This document shows positions 12,946 to 17,388 of a stretch of DNA of 64,000 nucleotides, piece after piece. Within the stretch, counting starts at the first letter, position 1. Each line of letters begins with the position of its first letter. Origin of the DNA: Hymenobacter sp. CRA2 (GTDB taxonomy: Bacteria > Bacteroidota > Bacteroidia > Cytophagales > Hymenobacteraceae); NCBI RefSeq assembly GCF_002007105.1, contig NZ_MVBC01000001.1, positions 806,001-870,000 of the forward strand. The letters run 5' to 3'. A program made the translations under genes and the position numbers. The notes below the pieces were generated by a model. That model searched no databases, was not told where the DNA came from, and was given only the letters and a program-made list of their open reading frames with translations.

Positions 12946-12976
12946 TTGCATTCTTCGGCGGCCTTTCCCACCTTTG
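12946..12976 (+). promoter_or_regulatory. Candidate promoter of the phe/tyr operon
   Basis: TTG (12946-12948) and CACCTTTG (12969-12976) are separated by 20 bp. This matches the Bacteroidota pattern (TTTG or TTG, 19-21 bp, TAnnTTTG) with one mismatch in the -7 box. A start site near 12983 would give leader peptide 1 a 5' region of about 18 nt. Inferred from sequence only. Confidence 0.6.
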
Positions 12977-13000
12977 GCTTACTCAGTACCCCACAAGCTC

Positions 13001-13060
13001 ATGCTCGCACCGCAGGCCCAGTACTTTTTTAGCTACTATTTCTACTACGCTCACGCGTAG
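13001..13060 (+). CDS. Leader peptide 1 of the phe/tyr operon (Tyr/Phe-rich)
   Basis: An ATG-TAG reading frame encodes MLAPQAQYFFSYYFYYAHA. Residues 8-16 (YFFSYYFYY) contain five Tyr and three Phe codons out of nine, a composition expected of an attenuator leader that senses charged tRNA-Tyr and tRNA-Phe. It sits about 25 bp after a good promoter candidate and 40 bp before an intrinsic terminator. The final codons and stop can fold into a hairpin (13045-13050 with 13055-13060), a candidate pause structure. No Shine-Dalgarno is visible, as is normal in Bacteroidota. The peptide itself is probably not functional; the ribosome position is what matters. Confidence 0.85.
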   Translation: MLAPQAQYFFSYYFYYAHA

Positions 13061-13064
13061 CAGC

Positions 13065-13109
13065 GAGGCCTCTTTGTAGCAACCCTAACCCAGATTCTAC
13101 AAGCGCCTC
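13065..13109 (+). promoter_or_regulatory. Candidate antiterminator 1
   Basis: GAGGC (13065-13069) and TTTGTAG (13073-13079) can pair with GCCTC (13105-13109) and CTACAAG (13097-13103, one G-T pair), giving 12 pairs around a small internal loop. This uses the 5' arm of terminator 1 and so excludes it. A ribosome stalled on the Tyr/Phe run (13022-13048) would leave this region free; a ribosome at the stop codon would cover its 5' side. Confidence 0.55.
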
Positions 13110-13131
13110 CTGCCCGGGAGGCGCTTTTTTT
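13101..13131 (+). terminator. Attenuator terminator 1
   Basis: A perfect 10-bp GC-rich stem (13101-13110 with 13117-13126) with a 6-nt loop runs straight into seven Ts (13125-13131). It lies between the two leader genes and would stop transcription before leader 2 and the structural genes. Confidence 0.9.
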
Positions 13132-13152
13132 CTGCCCATCAGTCCCGCACTC

Positions 13153-13233
13153 ATGCTTCGCACGGCCCGCTTTTTTTATGGCTTCTATTACTTCTTCTAC
13201 CGGAAGAAGCGGGGCCCTATTTGCGCAGCCTGA
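13153..13233 (+). CDS. Leader peptide 2 of the phe/tyr operon (Phe/Tyr-rich)
   Basis: An ATG-TGA frame of 26 codons with the run FFYGFYYFFY at residues 7-16 (five Phe, four Tyr) followed by a basic part RKKR. It is separated from leader 1 by terminator 1 and followed by terminator 2, 12 bp before the prephenate dehydratase start. The codons for residues 19-22 contain GCGGGGCCCT (13209-13218), which is the exact complement of the 5' arm of terminator 2, so the leader gene itself carries the antiterminator strand. A small hairpin (13191-13197 with 13203-13209) could pause RNA polymerase. Confidence 0.88.
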   Translation: MLRTARFFYGFYYFFYRKKRGPICAA

Positions 13234-13269
13234 AGTCAGGCACACCCAGCAAAACCACCAGGGCCCCGC
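13209..13269 (+). promoter_or_regulatory. Antiterminator 2 (perfect 10-nt pairing)
   Basis: GCGGGGCCCT (13209-13218) and AGGGCCCCGC (13260-13269) are perfect reverse complements. Pairing removes the 5' arm of terminator 2. The first segment lies 9 nt after the last Tyr codon of the aromatic run, so a ribosome stalled in the run leaves it largely free, while a ribosome terminating at 13231-13233 covers part of it. A local hairpin around the stop codon (13228-13232 with 13237-13241) fits inside the loop. Confidence 0.75.
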
Positions 13270-13289
13270 TACCGCGGAGGCCCTTTTTT
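13260..13289 (+). terminator. Attenuator terminator 2
   Basis: A stem of 10 pairs with one bulged A (13260-13269 with 13274-13277 and 13279-13284), loop TACC, followed by a run of six Ts (13284-13289). The structural gene start codon is 12 bp later, so this is a leader terminator and not the end of an upstream operon. Confidence 0.85.
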
Positions 13290-13301
13290 ATTCCCTCCCG
13301 C

Positions 13302-14135
13302 ATGACTCAAACTGTTGCCATTCAAGGCTTCGCCGGAAGCTTCCACCAGATTGCCGCCCAGCACTACTTTGGCCGGGCAGTGACTGTGTACTCCTGCGCG
13401 ACCTTCGCCGAGGTGGTGCGGCAGGTGGCTAGCGGCGAAGCGGCCTGCGGGTTGATGGCCATCGAGAATTCCATTGCCGGCAGCATCCTGCCCAACTACC
13501 GCCTGCTCCAGCAGGCCGCGCTGCAGATTACCGGCGAGGTGTACCTGCAAATCCGGCAGCACCTGGTGCTGCTGCCGGGCCAGACGCTGGCCGACGTGCG
13601 CGAAGTCCGCTCCCACCCCATGGCCCTGCTGCAGTGCACCGATTTCCTGAGCCGGCACCCGCATTGGCGGCTGGTAGAGACGGAAGACACAGCCCTGAGC
13701 GCCCGGCATATCCAGGAGCAGCAGCTCGCGGGTGTGGCTGCCATTGCCGGCGAGCTGGCCGCCCAGCTGTTCGGCCTCGATATCGTGGCGCCCGACATCC
13801 ACTCCGCCGCCGACAACTACACCCGCTTTTTGGTAGTGGAGCGCGCCGGCCACGCCCAGCTCAGCAGCGAGCAGCACAACAAGTCTTCTCTGTACTTCCA
13901 CACCGCGCATCGCCGCGGCAGCCTAGCCGAGGTGCTCACGCGCATTGCCGCCTGCGGCATAAACCTTTCCAAGCTGCAGTCCTTTCCGCGGCCCGGCACC
14001 ACCTGGGAGTACTACTTCCATGCCGACCTGGAATTCGAGCAGCCCGAGGACTTCCAACAGGCGCTGGCCTCGCTCAACGAAGTAGCTGAGAGTGTGCGGG
14101 TACTGGGCATCTACCATAAGGGGCAGACTTACTGA
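13302..14135 (+). CDS. pheA: Prephenate dehydratase
   Basis: The 277-residue enzyme converts prephenate to phenylpyruvate, the step committed to phenylalanine. The N-terminal PDT domain shows GFAGSFHQIAAQHYFG, IENSIAGS and the catalytic NYTRF motif (Thr174). A C-terminal ACT domain (about 193-270, SLYFHTAHRRGSLAEVL) should give feedback control by Phe. There is no chorismate mutase domain, unlike the enterobacterial P-protein; that activity is fused to the last enzyme of this operon. The ATG at 13302 gives the family's normal N-terminus; the longer in-frame start would run through the attenuator. First structural gene after the double attenuator. Confidence 0.95.
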   Translation: MTQTVAIQGFAGSFHQIAAQHYFGRAVTVYSCATFAEVVRQVASGEAACGLMAIENSIAGSILPNYRLLQQAALQITGEVYLQIRQHLVLLPGQTLADVREVRSHPMALLQCTDFLSRHPHWRLVETEDTALSARHIQEQQLAGVAAIAGELAAQLFGLDIVAPDIHSAADNYTRFLVVERAGHAQLSSEQHNKSSLYFHTAHRRGSLAEVLTRIAACGINLSKLQSFPRPGTTWEYYFHADLEFEQPEDFQQALASLNEVAESVRVLGIYHKGQTY

Positions 14136-14178
14136 TCAGCAGGCAAATAGACGACCAATAACAGACTCAACCTCAGCC

Positions 14179-15363
14179 ATGAATATCCAAGTTGCTCAGC
14201 GCCTGGCGCCCATTCAGGAGTACTACTTCTCGCAGAAGCTGCGCGAAATCGACGCGCTGAACCGGGCCGGTGCCAATGTCATTAACCTCGGCATCGGTAG
14301 TCCCGATCTGCCGCCGCACCCGAGCGTAATCGAGGCGCTGACCCGTTCGGCCCAACTGCCCACGACGCACGCTTACCAGAGCTACAAGGGCGTGCCGGCG
14401 CTGCGCCGGGCCATGGCCGAATGGTATGAGCGCAGCTACGGCGTGGCGCTGGATGCCGACAGCGAAGTGCTACCGTTGCTTGGCTCCAAAGAGGGCATCG
14501 TGCATGTGTGCATGACCTTTCTGCAGCCCGGCGACGAGGCGCTGATTCCCAACCCTGGCTACCCTACTTACCGCGCCGCCGTGCACCTGAGCGGTGCCAC
14601 GCCCGTCGACTACGACCTCACCACCGAAAACGACTGGCAGCCCGACCTGCGGGCCTTAGCCAGCCGCGACCTAAGCCGTGTAAAGCTCATGTGGGTGAAC
14701 TACCCGCACATGCCCACCGGTGCTCCGGCCGATGCGGCGGCCCTGGCAGAGCTGGTGGCTTTTGCCAAAGCCCACGGCATCCTGCTGGTGCACGACAACC
14801 CCTACAGCTTCATCCTGAACGAGCATCCGGCGAGCCTGCTGGCCGTGCCCGGCGCCCGCGAAGTGACCCTGGAGCTGAACTCGCTCAGCAAGTCGCACAA
14901 CATGGCCGGCTGGCGCGTGGGCCTGCTGGCTGGCCGCGCCGACCTGCTGCAGGAGGTGCTGCGCTTCAAGAGCAACATGGATTCGGGCATGTTCCTGCCG
15001 GTGCAGCAGGCCGCCGTGGCCGCCCTGCAGTTGGGCGCTGAGTGGTTTGAGGCGCTGAATGCTACCTACCGCGCCCGCCGCGAGCAGGTGTTTGGCCTAC
15101 TCGATGCCTTGGGCTGCCGCTTCGACCGCCGGCAGGTGGGCTTGTTCGTGTGGGCGGCGGTGCCCACCTCGCACGCCGACGGCTTCGCCCTCAGCGACGA
15201 AGTGCTGCAAGCGGCGCGGGTGTTCATCACGCCCGGCGGCATTTTCGGCTCCAACGGCAACGGCTTCGTGCGCGTGAGCTTGTGCCAGCCCGAGGCGGTG
15301 CTGACGGAGGCCCTGGAAAGAATCGTCAACGCCCGCCTGGCAAGTGCGGCGCTAACCCATTAA
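14179..15363 (+). CDS. PLP-dependent aminotransferase (aromatic, class I/II)
   Basis: This 394-residue fold-type I aminotransferase has the PLP lysine in LNSLSKSHNMAGWR (Lys239), a DNPYS aspartate region, and AYQSYKG near residue 66. The usual N-N-P-T-G loop reads NYPHMPTG, so the residue normally an Asn before PTG is Met. Position between prephenate dehydratase and dehydrogenase indicates the last step to Phe and Tyr (phenylpyruvate and hydroxyphenylpyruvate transamination), though prephenate itself is possible. It starts 43 bp after pheA and ends 4 bp before tyrA, consistent with one transcript. Confidence 0.88.
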   Translation: MNIQVAQRLAPIQEYYFSQKLREIDALNRAGANVINLGIGSPDLPPHPSVIEALTRSAQLPTTHAYQSYKGVPALRRAMAEWYERSYGVALDADSEVLPLLGSKEGIVHVCMTFLQPGDEALIPNPGYPTYRAAVHLSGATPVDYDLTTENDWQPDLRALASRDLSRVKLMWVNYPHMPTGAPADAAALAELVAFAKAHGILLVHDNPYSFILNEHPASLLAVPGAREVTLELNSLSKSHNMAGWRVGLLAGRADLLQEVLRFKSNMDSGMFLPVQQAAVAALQLGAEWFEALNATYRARREQVFGLLDALGCRFDRRQVGLFVWAAVPTSHADGFALSDEVLQAARVFITPGGIFGSNGNGFVRVSLCQPEAVLTEALERIVNARLASAALTH

Positions 15364-15367
15364 GGCC

Positions 15368-16213
15368 ATGATTGTAACCATAATCGGTGTGGGGCTCATT
15401 GGCGGCTCGCTCGCCCTTAGCCTGAAGCAGCAGGGCCTGGCCGCGCGCGTCATTGGCGTCGACCGCAGCCCGGAGAACCTGCGCAAGGCCCAGGATCTGG
15501 GGCTTATCGACAAGGCTCACAAGGACTTAGCCGCGGCCGTGGCGCCCGCCGACCTGGTCGTAGTAGCCGTGCCCATGGACGCCATGCTCACGGTACTACC
15601 CGCCGTGCTCGATCTGGTGACGGAGCGCCAAGTGGTCATCGACGTGGGCTCCACCAAAGCTGCTCTGCTGGCTGCCGTGCAGGCCCACCCGCGCCGGGCA
15701 CGCTTCGTGGCGGTGCACCCCATGGCCGGCACCGAGTACTCCGGGCCGGAGGCGGCGGTGCCGGAGCTGTTTGCGGGCCGCACGCTGGTTATCTGCGACG
15801 CGGCCGGCAGCGCCCCCGACGCGCTGCAGCTCGTCGAAACGCTGTTTCACCAGCTGCCCATGCGCCTGGTGCACCTCGCTGCCGCCGACCACGACGTGCA
15901 CACGGCCTACGTGTCGCACATCTCGCACATCACCTCCTTCGCGCTGGCCCTCACGGTGCTGGAAAAGGAAAAGGAGGAGCAGCGCATTTTCGAGCTGGCC
16001 AGCGGGGGCTTCGCCTCCACCGTGCGCCTGGCGAAAAGCTCGCCCGCCATGTGGGTGCCCATTTTTCGCCAAAACCGCCTCAACGTGCTCGACGTGCTCG
16101 ATGAGCACTTGCACCAACTGCAGCGCATGCGCGAACTGCTGCAACAGGAAGATTACGCTGCTTTTGCCGCGCTCATCGAGCAGGCCAACCACATCCGCCG
16201 CATCATCAAATAA
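15368..16213 (+). CDS. tyrA: Prephenate dehydrogenase
   Basis: The 281-residue protein converts prephenate to 4-hydroxyphenylpyruvate with NAD(P). It begins with a Rossmann nucleotide motif (GVGLIGGSLALSL), has the conserved HPMAGTEYSG loop with the catalytic His region, and a helical dimerisation part containing HDVHTAYVSHISHI. There is no chorismate mutase or ACT domain, so feedback control may rest on transcription (the leader attenuators) or on the DAHP synthase. Only 4 bp separate it from the aminotransferase gene. Confidence 0.93.
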   Translation: MIVTIIGVGLIGGSLALSLKQQGLAARVIGVDRSPENLRKAQDLGLIDKAHKDLAAAVAPADLVVVAVPMDAMLTVLPAVLDLVTERQVVIDVGSTKAALLAAVQAHPRRARFVAVHPMAGTEYSGPEAAVPELFAGRTLVICDAAGSAPDALQLVETLFHQLPMRLVHLAAADHDVHTAYVSHISHITSFALALTVLEKEKEEQRIFELASGGFASTVRLAKSSPAMWVPIFRQNRLNVLDVLDEHLHQLQRMRELLQQEDYAAFAALIEQANHIRRIIK

Positions 16214-16302: not shown

Positions 16303-17388
16303 ATGACTTCTGCTGCCCCTCTCGCCGCTACCATCAACCCGCTCATTGCCGACAAGCCGCTGGTCGTTTCCGGTCCGTGCTCGGCCGAAACCGAACTGCA
16401 GGTGCTCGATACCTGCCAGCGCCTGGCCGACACCGGGCGCGTGAACATGCTGCGCGCCGGTATCTGGAAGCCCCGCACCAAGCCGGGGCTGTTTGAGGGC
16501 ATCGGCACGCGGGGGCTGCCCTGGCTGATCCGGGCCAAGGAACAAACCGGGCTGCCCGTGGCCGTGGAAGTAGCCACGGCCAAGCACGTGGAAGACTGCC
16601 TGGCCTTCGGCGTGGATGTGCTTTGGCTGGGCGCGCGCACCACCGTCAACCCCTTCTCGGTGCAGGAGGTAGCCGATGCGCTGCGCGGCGTGAAGGTGCC
16701 AGTGCTCATCAAGAACCCCCTGAACCCCGACGTGGAGCTGTGGACCGGGGCCGTGGAGCGCCTGACAAAAGTAGGCGTGGAGCACCTGGGCCTGATTCAC
16801 CGCGGCTTCAGCAGCTACGGCAACACGGAGTTCCGCAACGCCCCGATGTGGCACCTGCCCATCGAGATGAAGCGCCGTTTCCCCACCCTGCCTATTCTCT
16901 GCGACCCGAGCCACATTGCCGGCCGGCGCGAGCTGCTGCACGGCTTGGCCCAGCAGGCCGCCGACCTGGACTTCGACGGCCTCATGATCGAAGCGCACCA
17001 GAACCCCGACGCGGCCTGGAGCGACGCGGCCCAGCAGGTGACGCCCGAGGCCTTGGCCGAGCTGCTGGCGGGCCTCACGTGGCGCCGCGAAACCACCGAC
17101 CAACAGGAGTTTCTGACGGCCCTGGCGCAGCTGCGGGAGCGAATCAACCACCTCGACGACGAGATTCTGCAGCTCATCAGCAAGCGCATGGCCGTGGCCG
17201 AGCAGATCGGGCGCTACAAGAAGGACAACAACATCACCATCCTGCAGCCCGGCCGCTGGCAGGAAATCGTGGACCGCGGCGTACGAAAGGGTGCCAAGCT
17301 GGGCCTGAGCCAGAACTTCATCCACCGCTTCCTCGATGCGGTGCACCTGGAGTCCATCACCCACCAGGACCGGGTGATGAATGAATAG
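16303..17388 (+). CDS. Bifunctional DAHP synthase / chorismate mutase
   Basis: The 361-residue protein joins the first enzyme of the shikimate pathway to the first enzyme of the Phe/Tyr branch. Residues ~10-255 form a class I-beta (KDO8PS-like) DAHP synthase: SGPCSAE, RAGIWKPRT, KNPLNPDVELW, HRGFSSYG, CDPSHIAGRR and MIEAHQNPD. Residues ~270-361 form an AroQ-type chorismate mutase (LRERINHLDDEILQLISKRM, IGRYKKDNN). This is the only chorismate mutase seen in the operon, so it supplies prephenate to both PheA and TyrA. It follows tyrA by 89 bp with a hairpin between, and is probably co-transcribed. Confidence 0.94.
   Translation: MTSAAPLAATINPLIADKPLVVSGPCSAETELQVLDTCQRLADTGRVNMLRAGIWKPRTKPGLFEGIGTRGLPWLIRAKEQTGLPVAVEVATAKHVEDCLAFGVDVLWLGARTTVNPFSVQEVADALRGVKVPVLIKNPLNPDVELWTGAVERLTKVGVEHLGLIHRGFSSYGNTEFRNAPMWHLPIEMKRRFPTLPILCDPSHIAGRRELLHGLAQQAADLDFDGLMIEAHQNPDAAWSDAAQQVTPEALAELLAGLTWRRETTDQQEFLTALAQLRERINHLDDEILQLISKRMAVAEQIGRYKKDNNITILQPGRWQEIVDRGVRKGAKLGLSQNFIHRFLDAVHLESITHQDRVMNE

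Follow-up and report, generated by a model that had tools for sequence, protein, structure and literature searches.

The pheA gene of Hymenobacter sp. CRA2 is preceded by two short open reading frames (ORFs) in series, each dense in phenylalanine (F) and tyrosine (Y) codons and each followed by an intrinsic terminator. It is very likely that these are two ribosome-mediated transcription attenuators placed one behind the other, served by one promoter, ahead of genes for PheA, an aminotransferase, TyrA and a DAHP synthase/chorismate mutase. The region lies in a 64-kb stretch of contig NZ_MVBC01000001.1 (64,000 nucleotides (nt), positions 806,001 to 870,000 of the forward strand), which was analyzed as a whole and is called the window below; all features discussed are on its forward strand and carry its coordinates. 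The argument is built on the anatomy of the locus, predicted folds that exclude one another, conservation, two-sided terminator changes, clade-specific complementarity in antiterminator 1, and the constant order in which the two leader types occur. Ribosome-mediated attenuation acting twice on the same signal appears the most likely account of them.

Architecture and predicted folds of the two units

The locus runs from a predicted promoter through leader 1, terminator 1, leader 2 and terminator 2 to pheA. A preliminary description of this DNA had listed these same items, and all of them are present in the sequence, the promoter as a prediction. That promoter, of the Bacteroidota type, spans 12946-12976, with TTG at 12946-12948 and CACCTTTG at 12969-12976. 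Leader 1 (13001-13060; ATG at 13001, TAG at 13058-13060) would encode MLAPQAQYFFSYYFYYAHA, in which the regulatory codon run (Y F F S Y Y F Y Y, 13022-13048) is followed by a short tail of 3 residues. With the pairing arms of each unit numbered from 1 to 4, the 1:2 pairing of unit 1 forms a predicted protector (13014-13071; AGGCC at 13014-13018 with GGCCT at 13067-13071, and an inner hairpin at 13045-13060), 2:3 forms the antiterminator (13060-13113; GCAG(C)GAGGC at 13060-13069 with GCCTCCTGC at 13105-13113, and TTTGTAG at 13073-13079 with CTACAAG at 13097-13103), and 3:4 forms the intrinsic terminator (13101-13131; stem-loop 13101-13126, T-run 13125-13131). Unit 2 is laid out along the same lines. 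Leader 2 (13153-13233; ATG at 13153, TGA at 13231-13233) would encode MLRTARFFYGFYYFFYRKKRGPICAA, with the run F F Y G F Y Y F F Y at 13171-13200 and a long tail of 10 residues that reads through arm 2; its predicted protector occupies 13164-13216 (GGCCC at 13164-13168 with GGGCC at 13212-13216, inner hairpin 13191-13209), its antiterminator 13209-13269 (GCGGGGCCCT at 13209-13218 with AGGGCCCCGC at 13260-13269, and TTTGC at 13220-13224 with GCAAA at 13249-13253) and its terminator 13260-13289 (stem-loop 13260-13284, T-run 13284-13289). The pheA ATG at 13302 stands 12 nt past that last T-run.

Full-length RNAs of both units are predicted to fold as 1:2 plus 3:4, and RNAs cut before arm 4 as 2:3. 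The whole units fold better than dinucleotide shuffles of themselves (z -3.29 for unit 1 and -3.22 for unit 2; 0/200 shuffles each). The RNA 13012-13116, which folds as antiterminator 1, has z -2.08 with 8/200 shuffles as good, and 13163-13270, which folds as antiterminator 2, has z -3.73 with 0/200. The longest Watson-Crick helix of antiterminator 2 in the window is 11 bp, and that of antiterminator 1 is 5 bp, plus three pairs past a bulge. The 1:2 protectors are only predicted, appearing in the computed folds of 13001-13131 and 13012-13090 for unit 1 and of 13153-13289 and 13163-13245 (z -2.30, 4/200) for unit 2.

With ample charged tRNA-Phe and tRNA-Tyr, the ribosome would run through the F/Y codons, arm 2 would be masked or held by 1:2, and the 3:4 terminator would form. 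Were tRNA-Phe or tRNA-Tyr short, the ribosome would stall in the run and occupy region 1, arm 2 would pair with arm 3, and polymerase would read on. Full transcription would require the lifting of both terminators, as polymerase passes both, and if the units are independent, leakage and read-through would multiply, with a lower off-state and a steeper response. We infer translation, stalling, the identity of the signal and this multiplication from the sequence; an AND-like sharpening, as first proposed for this locus, is plausible, and would follow from the series geometry only if the units act independently. A series design would also give two short leader RNAs, and it is conceivable, although very improbable, that a role in trans falls to the first terminated RNA, some 150 nt long, or to a leader peptide, as has been described for peTrpL, the trp leader peptide of Sinorhizobium meliloti (PMC7298713); no feature of the sequence demands such a role, and no target search was made.

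The genes downstream are those expected of a system that senses phenylalanine and tyrosine, and that genes for making both amino acids adjoin the leaders supports reading them as Phe/Tyr attenuators. The prephenate dehydratase gene pheA (13302-14135; PF00800, E 4.5e-56), whose nearest named record is from Hymenobacter gummosus (78% identity), is followed by a class I/II aminotransferase (14182-15363; PF00155, E 3.1e-61; start codon inferred inside the ORF 14092-15363), the prephenate dehydrogenase gene tyrA (15368-16213; NF006307 above cut-off, PF02153/PF20463) and a DAHP synthase fused to chorismate mutase (16303-17388; PF00793 and PF01817). These would presumably form one operon transcribed from one promoter across both units.

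Conservation and covariation in relatives

A pheA match was found in 168 of 204 genomes of the window's family, the Hymenobacteraceae, and 131 loci were read (31 from the search loci and 100 fetched); the 37 matching loci outside this set belong to genera coded g5 and g6 (34) and g4 (3). An F/Y leader ORF lies within 700 nt before pheA in every one of the 131, and over that distance a script called two leader-plus-terminator units in 78, one in 52 and none in a single locus, which has a leader and no called terminator. Seven of the one-unit loci (G048, G055, G062, G103, G110, G118 and G136) hold another leader ORF, after which no terminator was called; at least two leader ORFs are present in 85 of the 131 and one in 46. 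The conservation in relatives that would be expected of functional leaders and F/Y runs is thus found, in 131/131 loci for a leader and in 78 for the two-unit form. Within the window's own genus a pheA match was obtained in four of eight searched genomes, all four with two units. The other four (G001, G004, G005, G007) have no match although each is listed as 99% complete, and in G003 pheA was matched in two overlapping pieces (L085/L086), perhaps through a frameshift or an assembly error, with both leaders present.

Farther afield, 77 of the 80 nearest pheA loci in a named collection have a leader ORF, and L072, one of the three without, has only 150 nt of upstream sequence. Two leaders are present in 10 of the 11 Hymenobacter and in all 12 Chitinophaga loci of these 80 (the latter being L007-L013, L015, L017, L021, L022 and L027). 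Of the 12 Chitinophaga loci only 2 had both terminators by script; in all six inspected by eye, a hairpin with a T-rich tail follows each leader. A phylum-wide leader was considered and dropped, as an F/Y leader occurs in only 1 of 70 loci of a phylum sample, made up of 30 loci returned and 40 chosen by family code among the matches listed and biased to high-scoring prephenate dehydratases (Pfam); L301 in this sample ends at 664 nt and the others are unclipped.

It is improbable that such units arise by chance. In a six-frame scan of the window, at least 7 F/Y in 10 codons occurs only at the two leaders, and no leader-plus-terminator unit was found ahead of any of the 56 other window ORFs of at least 150 aa. 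A joint search of the 400 nt ahead of pheA for an F/Y leader ORF with a terminator after it gave two units in 76 of the 131 loci, one in 54 and none in one; on 20 dinucleotide shuffles of each of the 131 upstream loci it gave none in 2,619 of 2,620, one unit in the remaining shuffle and two units in no case. The leader ORF alone, without a terminator, arose in 44 of the 2,620.

Covariation is clearest in the terminators. The 9-pair stem of terminator 1 is 93.7% paired across 60 sequences, with 15 two-sided cells against 1.8 in shuffles, and the 10-pair stem of terminator 2 is 88.3% paired across 71 sequences, with 37 against 13.8; in fixed columns, the two-sided cells of both exceed slid controls as well. 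The letters of antiterminator 1 differ by clade, as GTCGAG:CTCGAC (22 of the 78 two-unit loci), GAACGAGC:GCTCGTTC (25 of 78, comprising 11 and a further 14 one base longer), GAGGC:GCCTC and GTCGGG:CCCGAC. A 2:3 Watson-Crick helix of at least 6 bp forms between a locus's own arms in 54/78 cases in unit 1, against 32% of cross-species pairs, and in 49/78 in unit 2, against 44%. Pairing with the own partner exceeds cross-species pairing for 2:3 and 3:4 in both units (0/2000 permutations each), and in non-redundant sets 2:3 still gives 0/2000 in unit 1 (n=9) and in the single units, both those of the family (n=12) and those from elsewhere (n=18). The own-partner test of the unit-1 protector gave 3/2000. 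Terminators 1 and 2 and antiterminator 1 are therefore well supported, and antiterminator 2 is supported, by folding more than by covariation. Of the stem covariation called for in both units, that in the two terminators and antiterminator 1 is present and that in antiterminator 2 is weak; the broader proposal of two leader-switch units in series before one operon is upheld by anatomy, folding, conservation and compensatory change in the former three elements.

Several observations weigh against this reading and should be set beside it. The leader codons have no third-position excess (position 1/2/3 differences of 4525/6807/6780 in unit 1 and 7412/9671/8968 in unit 2), a clean signal being lost because F-to-Y changes fall on codon position 2. 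The own 2:3 helix of unit 1 is shorter than 6 bp in 24/78 loci, the window included. The non-redundant 2:3 test of unit 2 is not significant (226/2000, n=13), and the GC-rich arms of this unit also pair well with the partners of other species. Three of four pairing controls are no better than chance, and the fourth, 1:3 in unit 2, is better (12/2000); none of these permutation tests takes account of phylogeny. As for the protectors, the cross-species 1:2 test of unit 2 is not significant (221/2000), and the unit-1 segment 13012-13090 alone folds no better than its shuffles (z -0.60, 54/200). RNAs cut before arm 4 favor 2:3 even with region 1 present, which implies that 1:2 protection must be a matter of kinetics, timing or the ribosome. 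The window antiterminators fit the fixed columns of relatives poorly, with 48.5% of cells paired in unit 1 (below its shuffles) and 55.9% in unit 2; sliding the unit-1 antiterminator by one column gives 65.9% paired and 66 two-sided cells. The poor fit is read as register shifts between clades, with which it is consistent, and fixed-column counting of these elements was dropped in favor of the own-partner and helix-length tests. Finally, single-unit loci occur within Hymenobacter itself.

Two leader types, their possible turnover and the predicted promoter

In all 78 two-unit loci the tail after the F/Y run is shorter in leader 1 (3-4 residues in 77 loci, 9 in one) than in leader 2 (7-15 residues), and the same order is kept in 12/12 Chitinophaga loci (2-3 against 8-9, with one of 22), so the two units are not plain copies. 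By the ORF positions in the window, leader 1 ends immediately ahead of arm 2 and translation of leader 2 would run through the arm, and the aligned relatives show the same placement by eye. The timing of arm-2 masking is thus expected to differ, a ribosome waiting at the arm-2 edge on leader 1 and sweeping across the arm on leader 2. In the other named loci (outside Chitinophaga and Hymenobacter) the leader nearest to pheA has a tail of at least 7 residues in 46/54, which makes the downstream unit look like the common type and the upstream unit like the addition. Seven Hymenobacter loci (L126, L120, L127, L119, L131, L128 and L018) have a single leader that is leader 1-like but long-tailed as in unit 2 (MLQPTARFFFSYYFYYLPGSRAAVL, ...LPGSRAAVL, or a close variant). 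Given the systematic difference in tails, the initial view that the same shortage is sensed twice may be too simple. It is tentatively suggested that the pair could be a two-stage attenuator, in which the leader-1 stop parks the ribosome at the arm-2 edge and leader 2 is read through arm 2, the stages having different kinetics or thresholds and together computing more than one switch would, and that Hymenobacter, Chitinophaga and two members of another genus of the window's family (G172 and G196) either retained this design or arrived at it.

The same differences could mean that the units divide the labor and sense partly different things, for example with leader 1 attending more to tyrosine and leader 2 more to phenylalanine, as a two-input gate. 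The tail lengths would fit this (78/78 and 12/12), as would the mean tyrosine fraction of the F/Y codons (unit 1, 0.52; unit 2, 0.46), with the fraction higher in unit 1 in 49 loci, lower in 17 and equal in 12. Leader 1 of all 12 Chitinophaga loci, but not leader 2, also carries a Trp codon (FW), so that sensing may extend there to a third aromatic amino acid. The tyrosine bias is small, however, and each of the two runs contains F as well as Y codons in 78/78 loci, which makes a sharp separation of Phe from Tyr unlikely; moreover, a stall at any F/Y codon should free arm 2. A division of labor is accordingly a rather doubtful alternative to two attenuators answering the same signal.

How the two-unit form has come and gone bears on whether both units matter. 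In a PheA tree (95 rows; quick method, support from the Shimodaira-Hasegawa-like approximate likelihood ratio test (SH-aLRT) only, midpoint root) Hymenobacter forms one clade whose first branches are two-unit, Chitinophaga forms a separate clade, and the two-unit loci of G172 and G196 sit on a long separate branch. At least five changes between one and two leaders are needed over 94 rows, and at least three within 33 Hymenobacter rows, as scored by ATG leader ORF count with L043 set to one by hand and one leaderless row excluded. The Hymenobacter changes look like losses by eye, and the two units either arose once and were then often lost or arose up to three times. L030, labelled Ignavibacteriaceae, and L042, labelled Verrucomicrobiota, have pheA with an F/Y leader and are nested among Bacteroidota in the tree, either by transfer or as mis-binned contigs. 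With such turnover one unit might do the regulating and the other be a back-up terminator or an evolutionary left-over: 46/131 loci have a single leader, some Hymenobacter loci resemble unit 1 only and G116 resembles leader 2 only, and the unit-1-like leader that remains is long-tailed in seven loci. This is unlikely, given that F/Y runs, terminators and tail-length order are all kept in 78 loci and that two-sided changes occur in the terminators of both units. The small hairpin over the leader-2 stop codon (13228-13241, GCCTGA AG TCAGGC) is rarely kept in its window form (22.2% of aligned cells paired), and the arms seen by eye at this place in other clades are complementary but of different sequence (AGTGT/ACACT, GTGAA/TTCAC, GTGCT/AGCAC).

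The predicted promoter agrees with the Bacteroidota consensus TAnnTTTG/TTTG given in two reports (PMC7366714, PMC9723704), and elements like it stand before leader 1 in relatives, as judged by eye. By script, a -7-like element is present in 72/78 two-unit loci and lies 19-25 nt ahead of ATG1 in 68/78. The gap from terminator 1 to ATG2 is 5-30 nt in 75/78, and a promoter between the units is unlikely because the gap is this short; together with the promoter-like element before leader 1, it suggests that polymerase probably meets both gates from the single predicted promoter. In the other three loci (L090, L100 and L102) the script-chosen ATG2 sits inside terminator 1, leader 2 having an in-frame upstream ATG there (MQASLPGG...), so that folding of terminator 1 could influence the choice of leader-2 start. 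The conserved TTTG after arm 2 was considered as an internal -7 box and is not favored: it pairs within the antiterminator in the folds, varies with its partner in some clades by eye (for example TGTTG with CAACA), and no -33 partner was seen by eye, no scan having been made. Tested separately for own-partner pairing, this distal helix yields only a suggestive result (29/2000 in unit 2, 857/2000 in unit 1, 66/2000 in family single units and 181/2000 in other single units). That the F/Y runs are untranslated, with two terminators of unrelated cause, or that leader 2 has a promoter of its own, would accord with the codon-position counts. The presence in 131/131 loci of an F/Y-rich ORF that has a start codon, the tail order in 78/78 and the little room that 5-30 nt leaves for a promoter of the leader-1 type make either highly unlikely.

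Comparison with known control systems

Attenuation by leader peptides belongs to the textbook mechanisms of gene control and usually offers a single decision point in each operon, and the attenuators of Escherichia coli pheL-pheA and trpL each have a single leader with regulatory codons. In the pyr operon of Bacillus subtilis attenuators do stand in series, but they are protein-based and are not leader peptides. The Hymenobacter locus shares with pheL-pheA and trpL the leader ORF, the 1:2, 2:3 and 3:4 alternatives, the intrinsic terminator and the downstream pheA, and differs in having two units, mixed F and Y codons, and another phylum and operon. No match to the Rfam Phe_leader family (RF01859) at its gathering score was found in the window; lax matches to Phe_leader (24 bits against 55, E 0.082) and ar15 (30.7 against 40, E 0.00016) are below gathering and were taken as chance or weak resemblance. 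Elsewhere in the window's genome, single leader ORFs precede hisG (L234, ending ...GHAGHHHHHSSPGEE, HHHHH) and trpE (L235, MTLASTSQLLWWWPSRFTGRD, WWW). Even at a lax limit the script found no terminator behind either of them, and they are likely His and Trp attenuators, as candidates only. Together these leaders suggest that leader peptides control amino-acid genes in Hymenobacter, a mode of control of which no description was found among the titles of the literature searched.

The published cases of tandem control are compared here as far as the available portions of their reports go. The nearest is the mgtM/mgtP pair of Salmonella mgtCBR, in which tandem attenuators respond additively to ATP and proline and which has been called a singular case of tandem attenuators that answer to different signals (PMC3641672); it likewise has two short leader ORFs in series, each with alternative stem-loops, but senses two signals, whereas here F and Y codons are found in the two runs alike and an intrinsic terminator closes each unit. 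The metE tandem riboswitches of Bacillus clausii, also with two independent elements and two intrinsic terminators, sense S-adenosylmethionine (SAM) and B12, two signals again, and are not leader peptides (PMC3641672). Some Gammaproteobacteria carry a second tandem terminator, with a potential antiterminator, upstream in the rimP-leader, for which amino-acid leader peptides are not described in that text (PMC2965389). Two leader peptides precede ermB, where the attenuation is translational and induced by erythromycin, not transcriptional and governed by amino-acid shortage (PMC8274638). A tandem amino-acid attenuator for one signal was not found in the literature searched, among the matches listed and with most subscription journals lying outside, and the suspicion that the arrangement is not a standard one is to this extent borne out.

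Single leaders in the phylum have been hinted at before. A survey of 2010 knew of leader-peptide systems only in Proteobacteria and Actinobacteria and added Firmicutes (PMC2965389), and leader-like ORFs have been remarked on in Bacteroides thetaiotaomicron (PMC7366714). In Flavobacterium psychrophilum a structured element without an Rfam match lies 5' of pheA, conserved in other Flavobacteriaceae, and its authors suspect leader-peptide attenuation ahead of amino-acid operons (PMC9723704); the Flavobacterium pheA loci read here have one F/Y leader with an ATG start, one unit against the two in Hymenobacter. As judged from sequence, the tandem arrangement is real, conserved and new within ribosome-mediated attenuation, the single pheA leaders having been hinted at already in Flavobacterium. 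Among related species this one control region occurs in tandem, unit-1-only and unit-2-only forms, and with these natural variants what a second attenuator adds to the single switch of the known systems, be it a lower leak, a steeper response or a second input, is testable by swapping one form for another.

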